Origin: Gammaproteobacteria bacterium
GTDB taxonomy: Bacteria > Pseudomonadota > Gammaproteobacteria > Eutrophobiales > Eutrophobiaceae
DNA: 64,000 nt
Direction of reading: 5' to 3'
NCBI GenBank assembly: GCA_030829955.1
Contig: JAURNY010000001.1
Span: forward strand, 1 to 64,000
Shown here: positions 37,733 to 46,999 of the stretch, one piece after another
Layout of the letters: each line of letters begins with the position of its first letter
Numbering within the stretch: position 1 is the first letter of the stretch
Made by a program: the position numbers and the translations under genes
Notes under the pieces: model-generated
The model's input: only the letters and a program-made list of their open reading frames with translations
What the model was told of the DNA's origin: nothing
Database searches by the model: none

Positions 37733-37995
37733 AATAGTTAAATAATGACTTGAGCATGTTTTGAGGCGCAACTTTACCGTATTGGGCTCCTAATCGCTAG
37801 ACTAGCAGTCATTAAAGTATATTAAATGATAAATTTTGAGAATAGTATGCCTGATGTGGATAATGTCTTTAAAAAAATTTAGCTTCAGGCGCATACTGTA
37901 TTGGACTATAAAAATATTATTTCATGTAACTTTGATATACTCTTTTATTTTTATATTATCTCAAAACATAGCATGTTATAAAAAAGGCATGAGTT

Positions 37996-38928
37996 ATGCA
38001 GTCTGATATTCAGAAAAACAATGTTTTAAAACGAGTTTACATCTGGTTGTTTAATCTTGAGTCAGAGGTATCTCATGGAGATATGACAATGGATAAAGCT
38101 CGTTTGTCTGTCTTTATATTGATGCATATTGCCTGCCTTGGTGTTTTTTTTGTTGGTTACAGTCATTTCGCGTTACTGGTCACGTTGTTTCTTTATGTTA
38201 GCCGTATGTTTTTTATTACTGCATTTTATCATCGTTATTTTTCTCATCGTTCATACAAAGTATCACGCCCGCTACAATTACTGATGGCAGTGGCTGGCTG
38301 TATGGCAGGACAGCGAGGGCCTTTATGGTGGGCTAGCCATCACAGACACCATCACAGTCATTCAGATACTGAGGAAGATTCGCATTCACCAAACCATGGT
38401 TTGCTAAATAGTCATATGCTCTGGTTTTTACGCCGAGGCAATTTTCCTGTTCTTTACTCCAGAGTAAAAGATTGGACACATTTCCCGGAACTGAAAATAC
38501 TTGAGAATATTGATTGGTTTCCTTTTACCTTACTTGGTATTGCCTGCTATCTCTTAGGAGATTTTTTTTATTTAAACTTTCCTCAGCTAGGGACAGATGG
38601 ATTGCAACTATTGGTTTGGGGGTTTTTTATTTCAACCGTGTTGCTATATCACGCAACGTATACGATTAATTCACTTTCCCACAAATTTGGTCGGCGTCGT
38701 TTTAATACCAGAGATGATAGTCGTAATAACTGGTTACTGGCATTAATTACATTGGGCGAAGGTTGGCATAATAATCATCATCGTTATCCCCATGCTGCCA
38801 GACAGGGTTTTTACTGGTGGGAAATTGATATTAGTTATTTAGTTTTATTATTTATGCGAAGGTTGGGTTTGATTAATTCCATGCAATCTGTACCAGCATC
38901 TGTTTATCTGGAAGCAGACCGGCGCTGA
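37996..38928 (+). CDS. membrane fatty-acid (acyl-CoA-type) desaturase
   Basis: The three histidine boxes of the di-iron desaturase family are present: HRYFSH (residues 79-84), HHRHH (115-119) and HNNHH (about 257). Four hydrophobic helices surround them. It should introduce a double bond, probably at delta-9, into a membrane acyl chain. It is first in a nine-gene operon; its TGA overlaps the ATG of the FAD enzyme (TGATG), so the desaturated chain is plausibly the substrate of the pathway. Confidence 0.9.
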   Translation: MQSDIQKNNVLKRVYIWLFNLESEVSHGDMTMDKARLSVFILMHIACLGVFFVGYSHFALLVTLFLYVSRMFFITAFYHRYFSHRSYKVSRPLQLLMAVAGCMAGQRGPLWWASHHRHHHSHSDTEEDSHSPNHGLLNSHMLWFLRRGNFPVLYSRVKDWTHFPELKILENIDWFPFTLLGIACYLLGDFFYLNFPQLGTDGLQLLVWGFFISTVLLYHATYTINSLSHKFGRRRFNTRDDSRNNWLLALITLGEGWHNNHHRYPHAARQGFYWWEIDISYLVLLFMRRLGLINSMQSVPASVYLEADRR

Positions 38929-40178
38929 TGCATATTGCCATTATAGGTGGCGGTATTGCCGGCATGACAGCAGCCTATTATCTATCCAGAAAGCACGATA
39001 TTACATTGTATGAAGCTGGTGATTATATCGGTGGTCATGCCAACACGGTAACTGTACTTGAGAAGGACAAACAGTTTTCTGTTGATACTGGTTTTATTGT
39101 CTTTAATGAAAATAATTATCCAAATCTTTGTCAGTTGTTTGATGAATTAGGTGTTGAATCAATTAATACCGACATGAGTTTTAGTGTGCATTGTGAAGCT
39201 ACAGGTTTGGAGTATAACGGCACATCACTGAATAAATTATTTTCCCAGCGACGCAATATATTCAGCTTGTCTTTTTTAAAGATGTTGAAAGATATTTCCC
39301 GATTTCATAACGATGCCATGTTGGCATTAGCAAATGGCTTGAGTGATACCATCACTGTCGAGGAATATGCCAGAACGCAATGTTATTCAAAGCAGTTTAT
39401 TGAACACTACCTTGTACCTTTAGGCGCCTCATTATGGTCAAGCCCGGCAGATCGTTTCCGACAATTCCCCATGCTATTTGTAATCGAGTTTTTAAATAAT
39501 CATTGCATGTTGCAAGTAAACGATAGACCACAATGGAAGACGGTTAAGGGCGGATCGCGTGAATATGTGCGTCGTTTAACATCATCTTTTATTGATAGCG
39601 TTCATTTGAATCAGGCAGTAAAGGCAGTAACGCGTAAGAACAACAAGATTGAATTGCGACTAAATAATGATCAAGTTGAGGAATTTGATGAGGTAGTGAT
39701 TTGTTGTCATTCGGATCAGGCATTGAAATTATTAACGAATGCAGAGACTAAAGAAAGGGAGATACTCGAGAGTTTTCATTATCAACTTAATGAAGCGGTA
39801 CTGCATACGGATACGAATGTATTACCAAAGAAAAATAATGCCTGGGCAAGCTGGAATTATCGAATTCCTGCCGAGCAGAATGATCATGTTTCCGTAACGT
39901 ATAACATGAATATGTTACAGAGCCTTGATTCAGACAAGACGTACTGCGTTTCCTTAAACCAGACAAAACATATAGATAAAGACAAAATTATTAAACGCAT
40001 TATTTATCATCACCCTCAATTTTCGCCAGGTCGTTCAGTTGCCCAGTCACAACATAACGAATTAATACGGTATAAGGGCATATCCTATTGTGGTGCTTAT
40101 TGGGGTTATGGTTTTCATGAAGATGGTGCTAGCAGTGCGCTGAATGTTTGTAATGGTTTTGATGTGGAGACGACATAA
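38928..40178 (+). CDS. FAD-dependent oxidoreductase (amine-oxidase-like)
   Basis: The Rossmann motif IAIIGGGIAGMTAAYYLSRK is at the N-terminus and the second FAD contact near the C-terminus is GYGFHEDGASSALNV. It belongs to the flavoprotein group that travels with DUF1365 and CFA-synthase-like genes in many proteobacteria. The known companion pathways act on unsaturated phospholipid acyl chains; desaturation or oxidation of such a chain is inferred here. The stop and the next start share a base (TAATG). Confidence 0.87.
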   Translation: MHIAIIGGGIAGMTAAYYLSRKHDITLYEAGDYIGGHANTVTVLEKDKQFSVDTGFIVFNENNYPNLCQLFDELGVESINTDMSFSVHCEATGLEYNGTSLNKLFSQRRNIFSLSFLKMLKDISRFHNDAMLALANGLSDTITVEEYARTQCYSKQFIEHYLVPLGASLWSSPADRFRQFPMLFVIEFLNNHCMLQVNDRPQWKTVKGGSREYVRRLTSSFIDSVHLNQAVKAVTRKNNKIELRLNNDQVEEFDEVVICCHSDQALKLLTNAETKEREILESFHYQLNEAVLHTDTNVLPKKNNAWASWNYRIPAEQNDHVSVTYNMNMLQSLDSDKTYCVSLNQTKHIDKDKIIKRIIYHHPQFSPGRSVAQSQHNELIRYKGISYCGAYWGYGFHEDGASSALNVCNGFDVETT

Positions 40179-40954
40179 TGTTCAGTTGCATTTACACAGG
40201 TAAAGTCATCCATCATCGATTATTACCGCATAAACATCGGTTCAGTTATCGTTTGTTTATGGTGTCTCTTGATCTGCAGGAATTACCGACATTATTTGAT
40301 CGATTTAAATACTGGGCGTATGAAAAAACAGCAATCGCCACATTCAGGCGTAAAGATCATTATGGTGAAGCAGGAGAATCACTCTATCAATCTATAAGTA
40401 AGCTTGTTGAACAGGAAACCGGTAATAGACCGGTTGGTTCGATCACATTAGTTACCCATCTGCGTTACTTTGGCTACATCATGAACCCTGTTAGTTTTTA
40501 TTTTTGCTGGGACAAGGAAAGAACATATATAAAAACGATTGTCGCAGAGGTGCATAACACACCTTGGGGTGAGCAGCACTGTTATGTATTAAATGGTGAT
40601 ATTCATCCAGGTGCTAACCGAAAATTTGAATTCGATAAAGCATTTCATGTTTCACCTTTTATGGATATGCAACAACAATACTGCTGGAGCTTTAATTGTC
40701 CAGGCGATGAAATTCATATCGCTATGCAAAGCTTTGAAAATACTGAGCGCAAATTCATAGCAACCATGCGCTTGCAACAAAAAGAAATAACTCAACAAAA
40801 TTTAAATGGTGTCCTTTTTCACTATCCATTTATGACTATTAAAGTGATTGCTGCTATCTACTGGCAGGCACTGCGTTTGTGGTGGAAGAAGACTCCTTTT
40901 TATGAATACCCGAAACACAAATCAAGGCAGGAGGCTAAACTTGAGAATAGTTAG
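40178..40954 (+). CDS. DUF1365 family protein
   Basis: A 258-aa soluble-looking protein with the family landmarks HRFSYRLFMVSLDL, LVTHLRYFGYIMNPVSFYFC and AEVHNTPWGEQHCYVL. DUF1365 is nearly always found between the FAD enzyme and a CFA-like methyltransferase, as here. Its biochemical role is not established. Its 3' end overlaps the next gene by 14 bases and contains that gene's ribosome-binding site. Confidence 0.9.
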   Translation: MFSCIYTGKVIHHRLLPHKHRFSYRLFMVSLDLQELPTLFDRFKYWAYEKTAIATFRRKDHYGEAGESLYQSISKLVEQETGNRPVGSITLVTHLRYFGYIMNPVSFYFCWDKERTYIKTIVAEVHNTPWGEQHCYVLNGDIHPGANRKFEFDKAFHVSPFMDMQQQYCWSFNCPGDEIHIAMQSFENTERKFIATMRLQQKEITQQNLNGVLFHYPFMTIKVIAAIYWQALRLWWKKTPFYEYPKHKSRQEAKLENS

Positions 40955-42230
40955 CGTATTTCAGGATCGTTATCCACGAGAACAGAGAAGTCGAATTATG
41001 CATCGTTTGCACTATGTTATTCGTCAACAAATGCAGAAAAAACTTGAAGGGATCAAACACGGTTCAATCATGATAACCGATGCCTGGGGTAGCTGGTGTC
41101 TGGGTGATGGAGTTGAAAATACAGTCAATATTACTATTCATGATTCAATGTTTTACTGGCTGGTTTTTCGTAATGGCAGTAATGGGGCGGCTGATGCTTA
41201 CCGTAAGGCATATTGGGATTGCTCAAGTTTAAATAAACTGTTCGCTATCCTGATAAATAACACCGACAAGCTTGATGCAATGGAAAGTGGCTTGGCAAAA
41301 TTAGGTGTATTAAAAGACAGGTTATTTCATAAACGACGTTCAAATACACAAAGCGGTAGTCAACAGAATATCCATGATCATTATGATTTGGGTAATGATT
41401 TATTTGAACTGTTTCTTGATGAAACAATGACATATTCATCAGCCATATTTCCAGATGACAATGCATCGCTATATGACGCTTCAGTTAATAAGCTCGATTT
41501 AATCTGTAAAAAACTTGATCTGCAGCCTTATCATCACATCGTTGAGATTGGTACAGGCTGGGGTGGTTTTTCCATGCATGCTGCTAAACACTATGGCTGC
41601 AAAGTAACGACGACTACCATTTCTCAAGAACAGCATGATCTTGCTAAAAAGCGTATTGCTGAAGCAGGGTTCTCTGATCAAATAGAGTTACTGTTAACCG
41701 ATTATCGTGAATTAGATGGTCAATATGATCGTCTGGTTTCAATTGAAATGATCGAGGCTGTAGGACATGAGTTTTTGCCTGACTACTTTTCTAAATGCGC
41801 ATCGTTATTAAAACCCGATGGTCAGATGTGTATTCAGGCGATTGCCATGCCTGATAACCGTTATGAAGCCTATTTAAAAACCCCGGACTTTATTCAACGT
41901 TATATCTTTCCCGGCAGTTGTTGTCCGGCGTTGTCAGCTATGACCAATGCTGTAGCCAGAACTGATTTAACTGTTTCGCATATTGAGGACTATGCACCAG
42001 ACTATGCGAAGACATTGCAATGTTGGCTGCACACTTTCATGCAAAAGGAAAATGAAGTCTATGAGCTTGGATATTCGAAATCGTTCTATCGTATGTGGGA
42101 ATATTATCTTGAATATTGTACTGCTGGTTTCGCCGAACGTTATCTTGGTTTATTGCAAATTGTTTTAAACAAACCTGCCTGTCGTCGTGAGTTAACGATG
42201 ATGAAAACCGGGAGTGATCATGTCGGTTAA
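40941..42230 (+). CDS. CFA-synthase-like SAM methyltransferase
   Basis: It has an N-terminal CFA-synthase-type domain, then HYDLGNDLFELFLDETMTYS and the SAM site HIVEIGTGWGGFSMHA. I chose TTG at 40941 because a perfect AGGAGG lies 6 bases upstream (40929-40934); an ATG at 40902 would be longer. Compared from memory with E. coli Cfa, the bicarbonate ligands Cys139 and His266 are replaced by Ser (YSSAIF) and Gln (CIQAIA), so it may add a methyl without ring closure. It is 429 aa. Confidence 0.88.
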   Translation: MRIVSVFQDRYPREQRSRIMHRLHYVIRQQMQKKLEGIKHGSIMITDAWGSWCLGDGVENTVNITIHDSMFYWLVFRNGSNGAADAYRKAYWDCSSLNKLFAILINNTDKLDAMESGLAKLGVLKDRLFHKRRSNTQSGSQQNIHDHYDLGNDLFELFLDETMTYSSAIFPDDNASLYDASVNKLDLICKKLDLQPYHHIVEIGTGWGGFSMHAAKHYGCKVTTTTISQEQHDLAKKRIAEAGFSDQIELLLTDYRELDGQYDRLVSIEMIEAVGHEFLPDYFSKCASLLKPDGQMCIQAIAMPDNRYEAYLKTPDFIQRYIFPGSCCPALSAMTNAVARTDLTVSHIEDYAPDYAKTLQCWLHTFMQKENEVYELGYSKSFYRMWEYYLEYCTAGFAERYLGLLQIVLNKPACRRELTMMKTGSDHVG

Positions 42231-42786
42231 TAACATAATTAACTTTGTTGGTTTTCAGATCGTTTGGTTCGCTGCTGTACTGGGGGCTGCCAATGCTATG
42301 CCATGGACAGGCGTTATAGCCATTTTAATATGGTTGGCAGTGCACTTATCTGTTCATCGAAAACAGTTAATTCAGGAAGTGGGACTTATTATTTTCGCAG
42401 CCTTACTCGGTTACAGTCTGGATTCAATACTGGTGTTATTAAATGCAATTCAATTTCCCGAACATGCACAACTTGGTTATCCGTCTACATTATGGATGGT
42501 GGCATTATGGATAAACTTCGCAACAACAATTCGCCATAGTTTGTCATGGTTGAATCATCGTTACTTTTTAATGACGTTTGTCGGTGGTGTTTCTGGTGCG
42601 CTTGCCTACTGGGCTGGCGTACAACTGGGCGCATTGTTATTTAATGATACTGTCATTGCCTTATTTTCTATCTTTTCAATGTGGTTTTTCGCGTTGCCAT
42701 TGTTGTATGTATTTTCCAATCGCTTTTTTACTTTTCAGAAAACGCACAATCATTCAGTTTCCTTACAGGGAGGCACATCAACATGA
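42220..42786 (+). CDS. DUF2878 family membrane protein
   Basis: About 188 residues, mostly hydrophobic, with five or six transmembrane helices and conserved-looking WMVALWINFATTIRHSLSWL. It fits the DUF2878 proteins that accompany this lipid operon in other gammaproteobacteria. GGAGT precedes the ATG at 42220; the start overlaps the methyltransferase by 11 bases, and the stop overlaps the next ATG (ATGA). Function unknown. Confidence 0.82.
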   Translation: MSVNNIINFVGFQIVWFAAVLGAANAMPWTGVIAILIWLAVHLSVHRKQLIQEVGLIIFAALLGYSLDSILVLLNAIQFPEHAQLGYPSTLWMVALWINFATTIRHSLSWLNHRYFLMTFVGGVSGALAYWAGVQLGALLFNDTVIALFSIFSMWFFALPLLYVFSNRFFTFQKTHNHSVSLQGGTST

Positions 42787-43562
42787 TGGAAGTTATTTAT
42801 CCTGTGTTGATAGCAAGTAGCTTAATAATGTTGTTGTTATGGTTTATACAACTAAAAACACACAATGCCGGCACGGTTGATGTTGCCTGGTCATTTGCGA
42901 CAGCGTTGGCAGGAATCTGGTTTGCGTATACAGTAATTGAAGGTTATTGGTTAAGAAATCTCATCGTCGGCATGATGATTGGATTATGGGGTGCTAGATT
43001 AGGCATGTATCTTTTTCGACGTGTCATGTCTGAAGCGGAAGATGGACGTTATCGTTATATGCGTGAAAGTTGTGGATCTTATGCGCAGGCTGTCATGTTT
43101 GTGTTTTTCCAGATTCAGGCAGCTTGGGCAATCTTGTTTGCATTACCCATACTTGTTGCAGTGACCAATCCTGCAGAATCATTGCTATGGACTGACTATA
43201 TTGGAGTCGTTATATGGCTGTTTGCCATGAGTGGCGAACTCATTGCGGATAGACAGTTAAGTGATTTTCGCAATAATCCCGACAACAAAGGCATGGTATG
43301 TAAACAGGGATTATGGCGTTATTCCCGCCACCCAAACTACTTTTTTGAATGGCTGCACTGGTTTGCCTATATCTCTATTGGGGCGGGATCAGATATCTGG
43401 TGGTTAGCCTGGTTAATTATGGTGCTTATGCTGGTTTTTTTATTAAAGATTACGGGTGTACCACACACCGAAAGTCAGTCATTGCGATCACGCGGCGATG
43501 CCTATCGACAGTATCAAAGAGAAACCAGTGTCTTTATTCCCCTTCCTCCAAAAAATGCTTGA
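42783..43562 (+). CDS. DUF1295 family membrane protein
   Basis: A 259-aa membrane protein with six or seven helices. Its C-terminal part, NKGMVCKQGLWRYSRHPNYF followed by FEWLHW, is the signature shared with steroid 5-alpha-reductase and isoprenylcysteine methyltransferase relatives. It may reduce or methylate a lipid at the membrane. I chose the ATG at 42783 with GGGAGG upstream; the frame is open to 42681 but overlaps DUF2878 coding sequence. Confidence 0.87.
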   Translation: MMEVIYPVLIASSLIMLLLWFIQLKTHNAGTVDVAWSFATALAGIWFAYTVIEGYWLRNLIVGMMIGLWGARLGMYLFRRVMSEAEDGRYRYMRESCGSYAQAVMFVFFQIQAAWAILFALPILVAVTNPAESLLWTDYIGVVIWLFAMSGELIADRQLSDFRNNPDNKGMVCKQGLWRYSRHPNYFFEWLHWFAYISIGAGSDIWWLAWLIMVLMLVFLLKITGVPHTESQSLRSRGDAYRQYQRETSVFIPLPPKNA

Positions 43563-43571
43563 GGTTTTTTT

Positions 43572-44615
43572 ATGACGACAGCAATGAATTATGCAATTGA
43601 TTTAAGTGAACGCGGAATGATTCCCGATCCGATATTACGAAAAAGTATTCGGCATTTGGTTCAGCAGCGATTGAAAGAAATAAAAGCGAATGATTGTGAA
43701 TATGGTTCAGCTATTAGTCATGATTTTGTTGCCATGATGAATGAGTCTCCAATCGCGCCTTTGCCTGATAAAGCAAATGAACAACATTACGAAGTACCAA
43801 CGGACTTATTTCGTTTAACGCTTGGGCAACATATGAAATACAGTAGTTGTTATTGGCAAGATGATGTGATTCATCTAGACCAGGCTGAAGCAGATAGTTT
43901 ACAGCTAACCTGTGAGCATGCAGATGTGCAGGATGGTATGGATATACTGGAATTGGGCTGTGGCTGGGGATCGTTGAGTCTTTGGATGGCCAGTCATTAT
44001 CCGAACGCAAACATTACTTCTGTTTCCAATTCACATTCGCAACGTGAATATATTATGCATCAGGCAATTGAAAGGGATATTCATAATCTTGAAGTGATTA
44101 CGGTGGATATGAATGATTTCAGGATTGATAAAACATTTGATCGCGTTGTATCTGTAGAAATGTTTGAGCATATGCGTAATTACAAAAAGCTTTATGCAAT
44201 GATCGCGGACTTACTTAATCCCGGCGGACATTTCTTTAAACATATATTTGTACATCGTGCTGTACCTTATGAGTTTTTAGTGCGTGATGAATCAGATTGG
44301 ATGAGTCAGTACTTTTTTTCTGGGGGCATTATGCCATCTGATGAGTTGCCATTATTCTTTCAGGATAAACTTGCTATAAAAAATCGTTGGCGCTGGAATG
44401 GTACACACTATGAAAAGACAGCAAATGCCTGGCTTGCGAATATGGATGCGCATAGTGATCAAATCATGCCATTACTTGCCAACACTTATGGAAAAGATAA
44501 TGCGATGAAATGGTTTATGCGTTGGCGAATGTTTTATATGTCCTGTGCAGAATTGTTTGGTTATGGCAATGGACAACAATGGTGGATAAGTCATTATTTG
44601 TTTGAGAAGAAATAA
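43572..44615 (+). CDS. second CFA-like/coclaurine N-methyltransferase-type methyltransferase
   Basis: The SAM motif DILELGCGWGSLSLWMASHY is followed by VVSVEMFEHM and FFKHIFVHRAVPYEF. This is the bacterial group resembling plant coclaurine N-methyltransferases and CFA synthases, without the long N-terminal CFA domain. Unlike the first methyltransferase it keeps a His in the FKH position, but the YSSCYW motif again lacks the bicarbonate Cys. GAGG precedes the ATG. It lies 9 bases after DUF1295. Substrate unknown; a lipid is likely from context. Confidence 0.87.
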   Translation: MTTAMNYAIDLSERGMIPDPILRKSIRHLVQQRLKEIKANDCEYGSAISHDFVAMMNESPIAPLPDKANEQHYEVPTDLFRLTLGQHMKYSSCYWQDDVIHLDQAEADSLQLTCEHADVQDGMDILELGCGWGSLSLWMASHYPNANITSVSNSHSQREYIMHQAIERDIHNLEVITVDMNDFRIDKTFDRVVSVEMFEHMRNYKKLYAMIADLLNPGGHFFKHIFVHRAVPYEFLVRDESDWMSQYFFSGGIMPSDELPLFFQDKLAIKNRWRWNGTHYEKTANAWLANMDAHSDQIMPLLANTYGKDNAMKWFMRWRMFYMSCAELFGYGNGQQWWISHYLFEKK

Positions 44616-44630
44616 TTACTGGACTATTTG

Positions 44631-44954
44631 ATGCTAAAGTCTTTTGCGATTTTTTCAATTTGCCTGATGTTGACGGCGCTAGGCTATGGTTTTATCTATG
44701 GGGAGTTGTCGGAAGAAAGCAATATCTTGATGAGCTTGCCTTGGGGGCGAGTCACGATAATCGATTTTTATACTGGCATCGCAATTTTTTCCAGTTGGGT
44801 GATGTTTAGAGAACAGAATGCATTAATTAGTCTTATATGGGTAATCGCTTTTATCTTTACCGGCAATCTTGCTACGGCAATCTATTTACTCAAGGCAATT
44901 ATAGAAGCAGATGGTGACCATCAGAAATTATTATTCGGGTTGAAACGATCATGA
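44631..44954 (+). CDS. small membrane protein, DUF1475-like
   Basis: A 107-residue protein with three hydrophobic helices and LPWGRVTIIDFYTGIAIFSS, which resembles DUF1475 proteins. I chose the ATG at 44631 rather than the TTG just before it. The stop overlaps the start of the next gene (ATGA). It may assist a lipid enzyme in the membrane; no function is known. Confidence 0.7.
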   Translation: MLKSFAIFSICLMLTALGYGFIYGELSEESNILMSLPWGRVTIIDFYTGIAIFSSWVMFREQNALISLIWVIAFIFTGNLATAIYLLKAIIEADGDHQKLLFGLKRS

Positions 44955-45658
44955 AGTTAAAGAATCTGGCTGGCATAGTAATTGTTTTGTGTTCATCTCA
45001 ATTATATGCCGATGAAAAAATTCGTGAGCGAGTTGGTGTTGCCAAAGATAGTAAAACGGGTGAGATGTTGTATACAGAAAGTCATCTGGAGACATATCGT
45101 TATGGCAATATTATTAAAGATGAAGTGAGTTACCGTGACCCGGATAATAATATTATTGCCAGCAAAGAAGTCGATTACACGGTACATAGCATAATGCCGG
45201 ACTTTAAATTAGTTAATCATAAAACCGGTCATCTTGAACAGGCGACAAAATCCACTAAAGAATTAACAGTCAAGTTTACTCGAAATGATTCTGCGGAAAT
45301 AACTCAGAAAACGATTGAACTACCTGAACAGGCAATTATCGATGCGGGATTTGATCAATTTGTTATTAAACATTGGAATGAACTAATAGAAGGCAGGAAG
45401 CTGGTGCGAAAAATGTTAATACCAAGTATGCAAACATTTATTGAATTTCGTATTTATCAATTTGAAGTAGACAGACAAAAAAATGAACGCACATTAATCG
45501 TTGAACCTAATAGTTTCCTCGTTCGATTTGTCGCAGATGAATTAAAATTAAAATATGATTTTGACAAGCCACGGCTTTATAGCTTTGAAGGCATCTCAAA
45601 TATGCGTGATAGTAGTGGCGAAAATTACAAAGTGATTATCACATTTGAGCGCGAGTAA
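44951..45658 (+). CDS. predicted secreted protein of unknown function, end of the lipid operon
   Basis: I do not recognise this family. A signal peptide (residues 1-20, ending LYA) precedes about 215 mostly beta-type residues with alternating charged and hydrophobic positions and no cysteines after the leader. It is thus likely periplasmic and soluble. Four-base overlap with the preceding gene shows it belongs to the operon; lipid binding or transfer is a guess from that context. Confidence 0.75.
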   Translation: MKLKNLAGIVIVLCSSQLYADEKIRERVGVAKDSKTGEMLYTESHLETYRYGNIIKDEVSYRDPDNNIIASKEVDYTVHSIMPDFKLVNHKTGHLEQATKSTKELTVKFTRNDSAEITQKTIELPEQAIIDAGFDQFVIKHWNELIEGRKLVRKMLIPSMQTFIEFRIYQFEVDRQKNERTLIVEPNSFLVRFVADELKLKYDFDKPRLYSFEGISNMRDSSGENYKVIITFERE

Positions 45659-46138
45659 GATAAATGGCTTCATGAGGATAATATCAGTTAGCCTGCATTA
45701 TTTATCGTAAAAATTACGAATAGTCTTTAAGACTTTAATGTTGTTTTGCAGCATTAAAAATTTCTTCACATTTTCACTTTTAAGTCCTGAAACATCACCT
45801 ATACTAATCCCCAACTCACATAGTTAAATCATTTATGGTTTGATGTATTTCTAGTTTATATGATGGGAGTTGGCAGATGTATAGAAACACATTTCCTAGA
45901 TCCGGTTCACCTACATGTATGCCAATAACGTATGGTCTCAAACGTAATGCTAGATTAGGCTCAAAGTTACCCAAATTCCATAATACAAATTTTTTATTAT
46001 CTACTTATGAAAGCAAAAAAATCAGACTAAATATCCTATCCTCTAATTTAGTTAGCTCCCTTTACGGGGTATTGTGTCTTTTCTCGGGATGGTTAATATT
46101 TATTTCAATATAATGTGATCGAGAGCGATATTTAACAT
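45659..46138. other. spacer after the lipid operon
   Basis: The 480 bases hold a 9-bp stem with a 5-nt loop (45735-45743 with 45749-45757, one G-T pair), followed by AAATTTCTTC, which may be a weak operon terminator. A doubtful 78-codon frame is listed separately. Nothing else is evident. Confidence 0.5.
45877..46113 (+). CDS. doubtful small open reading frame
   Basis: A 78-codon frame starts at an ATG with GGGAG 8 bases upstream and ends in a hydrophobic stretch (LYGVLCLFSGWLIFISI) that could be a membrane helix. The first 60 residues are basic with no family resemblance, and codon use is ordinary for AT-rich spacer. It could be a small membrane protein or chance. Confidence 0.3.
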   Translation: MYRNTFPRSGSPTCMPITYGLKRNARLGSKLPKFHNTNFLLSTYESKKIRLNILSSNLVSSLYGVLCLFSGWLIFISI

Positions 46139-46999
46139 ATGGAAACCAGGTTCCACATTGTTGCATTATTAATATTCATTCTTTCACCAGTATTAGCGAA
46201 TTCTGGCGCCAAGGATATTGCTAGAGAGCAGGAAATTGCCAAGCAGCTTGAGGCAACAGCAAATGAAACTGAAGTCATTTGGCTAGAGGCTGATCAACAG
46301 CAATTTATTGGATTATTTAGAGCGCAAACGCAGCAGAAAGCAGCGGGTGCAATTATTCTGTTACACGGCATGGGTGGTCATGCTGATTGGCCTTATATCA
46401 TCTCACCATTACGCGAGGCCTTGCCGGAACAGGGCTGGTCAACATTATCTATTCAGTTACCGGTTTTGGCCATGGATAATCCAATTGAAAACTATGGTGT
46501 CACATTAGATGCAGCGGCAAACCGTTTGGAGGCTGCCATTAGATATTTACGCGCGCGAAAGTTTTTAAATATTTTTGTTGTTGGTCACAGTTTTGGTGCA
46601 GCGACGGCCTTATATTATCTGAGCAATGGTCAACGTCCGAAAATATTGGCATTGATCAGTATTGGTTTACAGGAATATGTATTTTTAAAACCTGCGATAA
46701 ATACGTTCAATTTATTAGAAAAAGCACGATTACCAATCCTGGATATTTTTGGAGAACTTGATTATAGGGAAGTCATTGATAATGCGCGTATTCGTCGGCT
46801 TGCTGCGAATAAGGGTAATAATAATAAATATAAACAAATTGAAATCGTTGGTGCCGGTCATAATTTTCTGAAGATGGAAGAAATGTTGGCAAAACATATA
46901 CATGGTTGGCTTGACAAGGCATTTCCGGTTGTGTCGATTATGGTTAATGAAAATTTTGATGGTAACCAGTCGGAAAAAGAAGCAGATAAAGCCGAATAA
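46139..46999 (+). CDS. alpha/beta hydrolase, DUF3530-like
   Basis: A signal peptide (residues 1-21) precedes an alpha/beta-hydrolase fold: AIILLHGMGGHADWPYIISP carries the oxyanion region, VVGHSFGAATALYYL the nucleophile Ser, DIFGELDYREV the acid and GAGHNF the His. So the full triad is visible. The layout fits DUF3530. It is probably a periplasmic esterase or lipase-like protein; the substrate is unknown. Confidence 0.82.
   Translation: METRFHIVALLIFILSPVLANSGAKDIAREQEIAKQLEATANETEVIWLEADQQQFIGLFRAQTQQKAAGAIILLHGMGGHADWPYIISPLREALPEQGWSTLSIQLPVLAMDNPIENYGVTLDAAANRLEAAIRYLRARKFLNIFVVGHSFGAATALYYLSNGQRPKILALISIGLQEYVFLKPAINTFNLLEKARLPILDIFGELDYREVIDNARIRRLAANKGNNNKYKQIEIVGAGHNFLKMEEMLAKHIHGWLDKAFPVVSIMVNENFDGNQSEKEADKAE

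Follow-up and report, generated by a model that had tools for sequence, protein, structure and literature searches.

What does the group of nine genes at positions 37996-45658 (+ strand) of the DNA analysed here make? The window, a stretch of 64,000 nt of contig JAURNY010000001.1 (assembly GCA_030829955.1) from a gammaproteobacterium of the family Eutrophobiaceae, encodes at this place a membrane desaturase (DES), orthologues of UfaD, UfaO and UfaM, a DUF2878 protein, a DUF1295 protein, a second methyltransferase (MT2), a DUF1475-like protein and a secreted protein (gene 9). Furan fatty acids (FuFA) are lipid antioxidants of fish, plants and microbes, and the operon very probably makes first monomethyl and then dimethyl FuFA on membrane phospholipids, as antioxidants against singlet oxygen and lipid radicals. 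An earlier sequence-only reading had described a lipid-modification operon recalling UfaM/UfaD/UfaO and considered its product not predictable; the first part is borne out by clade, Pfam and synteny, whereas the second was too pessimistic, since UfaM can be separated from the cyclopropane synthase Cfa by clade and active site, and MT2 is assigned as FufM.

Operon structure and conservation

All nine open reading frames are present in the order first described, and their coordinates agree with the claim that the genes overlap or lie no more than 15 bases apart, ufaM being taken to start at TTG 40941. Indeed, DES and ufaD overlap by 1 nt, ufaD and ufaO by 1 nt, ufaO and ufaM by 14 nt, ufaM and the DUF2878 gene by 11-17 nt, and the DUF2878 and DUF1295 genes by 1-4 nt; gaps of 9 nt and 12-15 nt separate the DUF1295 gene from MT2 and MT2 from the DUF1475-like gene, which overlaps gene 9 by 4 nt. 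A strong AGGAGG stands just 5' of the TTG, and the alternative ufaM start, ATG 40998, would leave a gap of 43 nt after ufaO. The family names given in the sequence-only reading match Pfam for all genes, gene 9 belonging to no family.

A DUF1365 match was found in 31 of 96 genomes (that of the host and those of relatives), and the regions around these matches, mostly of 10-18 kb, were compared. The order DES-ufaD-ufaO-ufaM-DUF2878-DUF1295-(MT2)-DUF1475-gene 9 was seen again in some 20 genomes belonging to the taxonomic family, with core enzymes 50-60% identical, and because it persists across the family down to this protein identity it is not due to chance. MT2 is the part most often missing, being absent from about half of the operons of the family. 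Counts over relatives are raw and uncorrected for phylogeny, and in the set of 70 mapped loci most of those with DES come from one family, so that the counts are not independent. The nine-gene operon is confirmed as real and forms one apparent transcript.

Core enzymes UfaD, UfaO and UfaM

In the alphaproteobacterial pathway, UfaM puts a methyl group on cis-vaccenoyl chains, UfaD then desaturates the methylated chain and UfaO, a DUF1365 protein, makes the furan with oxygen derived from O2 (PMC7380195). The activities of UfaD, UfaO, UfaM and FufM have been published from work in vivo and partly in vitro, RSP1087-1089 are dispensable, and UfaO (RSP1090) is itself a DUF1365 protein (PMC7380195). 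The ufaM of Halomonas gave the methylated intermediate when expressed in E. coli (PMC12089945).

Judged from their sequences, genes 2-4 are UfaD, UfaO and UfaM, the enzymes known to turn phospholipid 18:1 into monomethyl FuFA. The UfaD orthologue (38928..40178, + strand; 416 aa; Pfam Amino_oxidase 1.9e-25), a predicted FAD amine-oxidase-like desaturase acting on the methylated acyl chain, carries the FAD dinucleotide motif GxGxxG...E and is 41% identical to the UfaD that adjoins UfaO/UfaM in Rhodopseudomonas sp. B29. Its gene lies directly 5' of ufaO, and the order ufaD-ufaO-ufaM is kept across Pseudomonadota. The UfaO orthologue (40178..40954, + strand; 258 aa; PF07103 6.6e-82), a putative O2-dependent furan-forming oxygenase, keeps the residues that are invariant among 71 homologues. 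The UfaM orthologue (40941..42230, + strand; 429 aa from the TTG start; CMAS 6.7e-86) is a predicted acyl methylase of the CMAS family dependent on S-adenosylmethionine (SAM).

The match of both methyltransferases of the operon to CMAS, and the cyclic acids reported alongside when the Halomonas ufaM was overexpressed in E. coli (PMC12089945), raise the alternative that the operon serves the usual synthesis of cyclopropane fatty acids and includes accessory genes for it, which is nevertheless very improbable. In a CMAS tree of 103 proteins with SH-aLRT support, the window UfaM falls inside a 69-row clade (SH-aLRT 95) together with the gene adjoining ufaO/ufaD in Rhodopseudomonas sp. B29, whereas E. 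coli Cfa and further CMAS genes from Rhodopseudomonas and Caulobacter branch outside it. His266 is a bicarbonate ligand in E. coli Cfa (PMC11387697); the corresponding position is Gln in 69/69 UfaM rows, positions 240 and 236 being Ala and Glu, also in 69/69, whereas the four Cfa-type rows have His at 266, His at 240 and Gly at 236. The window UfaM has S139, E236, A240 and Q266 in E. coli numbering and keeps the bicarbonate ligands Glu239 and Tyr317, with His266 replaced by Gln. The residues at positions 266, 240 and 236 offer, in the sequences compared, a simple marker of UfaM versus Cfa. Moreover, no part in cyclopropane formation is known for UfaD or UfaO, and the only CMAS genes of the host genome are the two in the operon, so that there is no separate cyclopropane synthase.

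Second methyltransferase and end product

MT2 (43572..44615, + strand; 347 aa; CMAS 2.3e-41), a SAM-dependent methylase, belongs to a 30-row clade (support 100) that includes the FufM orthologue of Rhodopseudomonas sp. B29 (47% identity). This strain has exactly three CMAS genes, of which the FufM orthologue is the sole one that is neither UfaM nor Cfa, and the CMAS set of R. palustris comprises UfaM, RPA3082 and RPA0924/FufM (PMC7380195). MT2 is assigned as FufM, the orthologue of RPA0924, with the B29 gene as stand-in for RPA0924, and the predicted end product is consequently dimethyl FuFA. It is this assignment, together with the separation of UfaM from the cyclopropane synthases, that turns dimethyl FuFA into a specific prediction. 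Dimethyl FuFA is about twice as active as monomethyl FuFA in vitro (PMC6213525). Of 299 Pseudomonadota genomes, 26 have FufM, and it is accompanied by DUF1365 in 25 of them, against a DUF1365 share of 43% overall (p 3.5e-9, phylogeny uncorrected).

Monomethyl FuFA could instead be the end product and MT2 could methylate something else, a possibility raised by the grouping of a plant FufM relative among the coclaurine N-methyltransferases. About ten genomes of the family do keep the rest of the operon without MT2, and when 18 genomes of the family were searched for CMAS genes, most of those whose operon lacks MT2 proved to have no enzyme of the MT2 type at all; two of the genomes (G052 and G040) have a second CMAS gene, which scores like UfaM/Cfa and unlike MT2. 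The FufM-like protein of Arabidopsis, 38% identical to FufM, has a putative activity (PMC10940516). However, MT2 stands with the Rhodopseudomonas FufM in a single well-supported clade, and the linkage of FufM to ufa genes is conserved over alphaproteobacteria and the host's class, which makes a monomethyl end product quite unlikely.

In brief, the dimethyl pathway would run as follows: UfaM would add a methyl group to a cis-unsaturated acyl chain, whose double bond would thereby be shifted and become trans; UfaD would desaturate this product to a conjugated methyl-diene; UfaO would insert the O2-derived oxygen that closes the furan ring; and FufM would add the second methyl to the ring. An enzyme of the UfaM kind would be expected to yield 11-methyl-12-trans-18:1 from cis-vaccenoyl chains, and one of the FufM kind to convert 9M5-FuFA to 9D5-FuFA.

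Front desaturase

DES (37996..38928, + strand; 310 aa; Pfam FA_desaturase, PF00487, 7.6e-19) is a membrane fatty-acid desaturase of the stearoyl-CoA (delta-9) type. It matches SCD1 (4ymk) with a phmmer E of 1.6e-29 over 266 aligned residues, and its histidine boxes HRYFSH, HHRHHH and HNNHH align with those of stearoyl-CoA desaturase. In the 70 mapped loci, ufaD is adjoined by DES in 25, by the SDR gene known from the Aeromonas-type cluster in 20 and by both in none; DUF1295 is carried by 21 of the 25 DES loci. DES probably provides unsaturated acyl chains as substrate for the pathway. It is the only PF00487 match in the whole host genome; a role as sole source of unsaturated chains was rejected, since the genome also has FabA and such chains are possible without DES.

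DUF1295 as a predicted membrane reductase

The DUF1295 membrane protein (42783..43562, + strand; 259 aa; PF06966 1.2e-65; Steroid_dh 1.6e-10) is a predicted NADPH-dependent reductase with a steroid/sterol-reductase fold. Among the 80 named FufM loci of alphaproteobacteria, its gene is a direct neighbour of FufM in 65, and ufaD lies within 4 kb in 61. In Rhodopseudomonas sp. B29 it directly precedes FufM, and by this synteny RPA0923 is probably a DUF1295 gene; RPA0923 deletion strains appear in the published strain list, and the main text gives no phenotype for them (PMC7380195). DUF1295 also persists where FufM is lacking, both in genomes of the family and in a genome of another class (L093) that has no FufM; two Rhodobacter-like ufa loci (L091 and L103) carry ufaD-ufaO together with ECF-ChrR and lack DUF1295.

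An AlphaFold model of the protein from 50 sequences (pLDDT 95) matches the delta-14 sterol reductase MaSR1 (4quv, Z 14.3), PbSRD5A (7c83, Z 14.2) and SRD5A2 (7bw1, Z 12.9), with sequence identities to steroid/sterol reductases of 13-15%. ICMT, a SAM methyltransferase, reached Z 11.9 and the next unrelated row 6.7, helical models often scoring high in such comparisons. The NADPH contacts of SRD5A2 are N160, D164, R171, N193, E197, R227, H231 and Y235 (PMC7815742). By hidden Markov model alignment, the first five correspond to E152, D156, R163, N185 and E189 of the window protein (4/5 identical), R227, H231 and Y235 being unaligned. DUF1295 is probably an NADPH-dependent membrane reductase that acts on a lipid of the furan pathway.

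The modelled fold is shared with NADPH-dependent C=C reductases, which allows the alternative that DUF1295 diverts the UfaM/UfaD product to a saturated branched chain, the operon making methyl-branched or methyl-diene chains and no furans. The retention of DUF1295 in family genomes without FufM would fit this. Such a diversion is however unlikely: UfaO is present in every mapped operon with its invariant residues kept, and FufM, whose known substrate is a furan, is part of the same operon and adjoins DUF1295 in alphaproteobacteria.

Within FuFA metabolism, the reduction by DUF1295 could serve purposes other than synthesis. Attack by singlet oxygen opens furans to unsaturated 1,4-diones, SRD5A-type reductases reduce C=C bonds in conjugation with a ketone, and the 1,4-dione so formed can lose water and become a furan again. 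It is possible, if on the doubtful side, that DUF1295 is a FuFA repair enzyme recycling the spent antioxidant rather than a synthesis enzyme. This role would explain its retention where FufM is missing, its absence from the Rhodobacter-like ufa loci although R. sphaeroides makes FuFA, and the induction of a DUF1295 gene by singlet oxygen in Chlamydomonas, where the CFA1, CFA2, DUF1365 and DUF1295 genes are induced in a SAK1-dependent manner (PMC4067076). Through this operon, the widespread, uncharacterised membrane family DUF1295 becomes a candidate for a partner conserved with the pathway, in bacteria and perhaps also in algae.

Points against the furan assignment

Several points weigh against the synthesis of dimethyl FuFA by this operon. 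The pathway steps in the host are assigned through orthology to the alphaproteobacterial enzymes; UfaO is only about 30% identical to the alphaproteobacterial proteins; and Rhodopseudomonas sp. B29 and a Rhodobacter-like genome stood in for the sequences of R. palustris and R. sphaeroides. The regiospecificity of DES cannot be read from the sequence, which leaves ring position and chain length unfixed. Finally, no Cupin_7 match for the anti-sigma factor ChrR, a switch that responds to singlet oxygen, was found in the host genome, so that the link to singlet-oxygen stress is indirect.

Accessory genes

The DUF2878 membrane protein (42214..42786, + strand, with an alternative ATG at 42220; 190 aa; PF11086 5.4e-36), the DUF1475-like small membrane protein (44628..44954, + strand; 108 aa; PF07343 5.9e-10) and the secreted protein encoded by gene 9 (44951..45658, + strand; 235 aa) are putative accessory proteins. 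A DUF2878 gene lies near ufaD in 26 of the 70 mapped loci and a DUF1475-like gene, found in the host's family, in 14. Gene 9 has a signal-peptide-like N-terminus and no known domain (no Pfam/NCBIfam family); its distant homologues (24-32%) close ufa operons in other families, and its single-sequence fold (pLDDT 39) is unusable. A relationship of gene 9 to DUF6134, lipocalins or chalcone-isomerase-like proteins was rejected, nothing having been found by profile-profile comparison or Pfam, and profile-profile comparison likewise rejected DUF1475, DUF2878 and DUF1295 as relatives of each other. In five other loci (L050, L051, L053, L054 and L085), the ufa genes come after genes for a lipocalin and a secreted DUF6134 protein, which suggests envelope lipid trafficking tied to FuFA.

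Regulation and surroundings

The candidate promoter region 5' of DES (37820..37995, + strand) contains a TTGATA-16-TATTAT match, which does not exceed what shuffled sequences give. In 16 loci of the family, an OmpR-type response regulator and a histidine kinase are encoded just upstream of the operon (for example L032:11754-13743 and L033:4048-6016; the pair is broken up in L043). TTCAC-N6-TTCAC occurs upstream of DES in 13 of these 16 loci, versus 0.012 expected per 250 nt, and in most of the loci with this repeat a third TTCAC follows 22 nt further (-N17-TTCAC). The regulator/kinase pair is likely a dedicated regulator of the operon in these relatives. Upstream of DES in the window, there is neither such a pair nor the TTCAC repeats, and a simple pattern search there found no TGATC-type site of a sigmaE-type promoter; without pair, repeats and ChrR, control in the host differs from both schemes. 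In 27 of the 70 mapped loci (L033, L035, L052, L064, L066, L067, L069 and others), genes of the photolyase/cryptochrome type are found close to ufaD, which fits a light-stress setting.

The closest genes 5' of the operon (rpe, gph and trpE) are in the opposite orientation. On its 3' side, 480 nt without a called gene (45659-46138), in which an Rfam search gave no match, precede a DUF3530 gene at 46139.

A further lipid-type cluster in the genome

Elsewhere in the host genome (G000:C15:162074-182195; L234, L235), a PfaA-type synthase (TIGR02813, 1656 bits) and a PfaC-like synthase with three FabA-like domains are encoded, with nucleotide-sugar-type genes between them; ole genes come next, with matches of the OleC and OleD types, and together these genes probably form a cluster for a polyunsaturated hydrocarbon or lipid. 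A link between polyunsaturated fatty acids and the ufa operon was rejected, the co-occurrence of pfaC-like genes and ufaO in 53 family genomes not being significant (14/20 vs 14/33, p 0.09). FufM-less operons were in genomes with a PfaC-like synthase in 11 of 11 cases, versus 3 of 9 for operons with FufM (p 0.002, confounded by genus).

Comparison with known systems

The core of the operon is not new, since ufaD, ufaO and ufaM are already side by side in published gammaproteobacteria: they are consecutive, as in the window, in Halomonas (PMC12089945), and the related NTF2-SDR-FAD-DUF1365-cfa-DUF2878 cluster of Aeromonas (PMC10012899) shares the order FAD-DUF1365-cfa-DUF2878, with an SDR where the window has DES. 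Compared with both clusters, the window operon has DUF1295, FufM and the DUF1475-like and secreted proteins in addition. What is new is the extension (DES, DUF1295, DUF1475-like and secreted protein) and its conservation.

The FuFA pathway of R. sphaeroides and R. palustris (PMC7380195) has the same UfaM, UfaD, UfaO and FufM, so that the same SAM, FAD and O2 chemistry is expected, and the position of DUF1295 directly before FufM in Rhodopseudomonas sp. B29 is that of the window. In R. sphaeroides and R. palustris, however, the genes are spread over separate loci, whereas here they form a single operon, with DES, DUF2878, DUF1475-like and secreted proteins in addition and with no ChrR in the host genome. 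The Chlamydomonas SAK1-dependent genes (PMC4067076) represent the same set of families, CFA2 being listed as coclaurine N-methyltransferase in one table; they are scattered nuclear genes of an alga, the likeness is at family level and FuFA there is putative. SRD5A2, PbSRD5A and MaSR1 resemble DUF1295 in fold, and the alignment with SRD5A2 suggests that most of the alignable NADPH contacts are kept, whereas a steroid context is absent at the window operon. Having the whole known dimethyl pathway and its own desaturase in one apparent transcript, the operon offers a compact test bed for this pathway.

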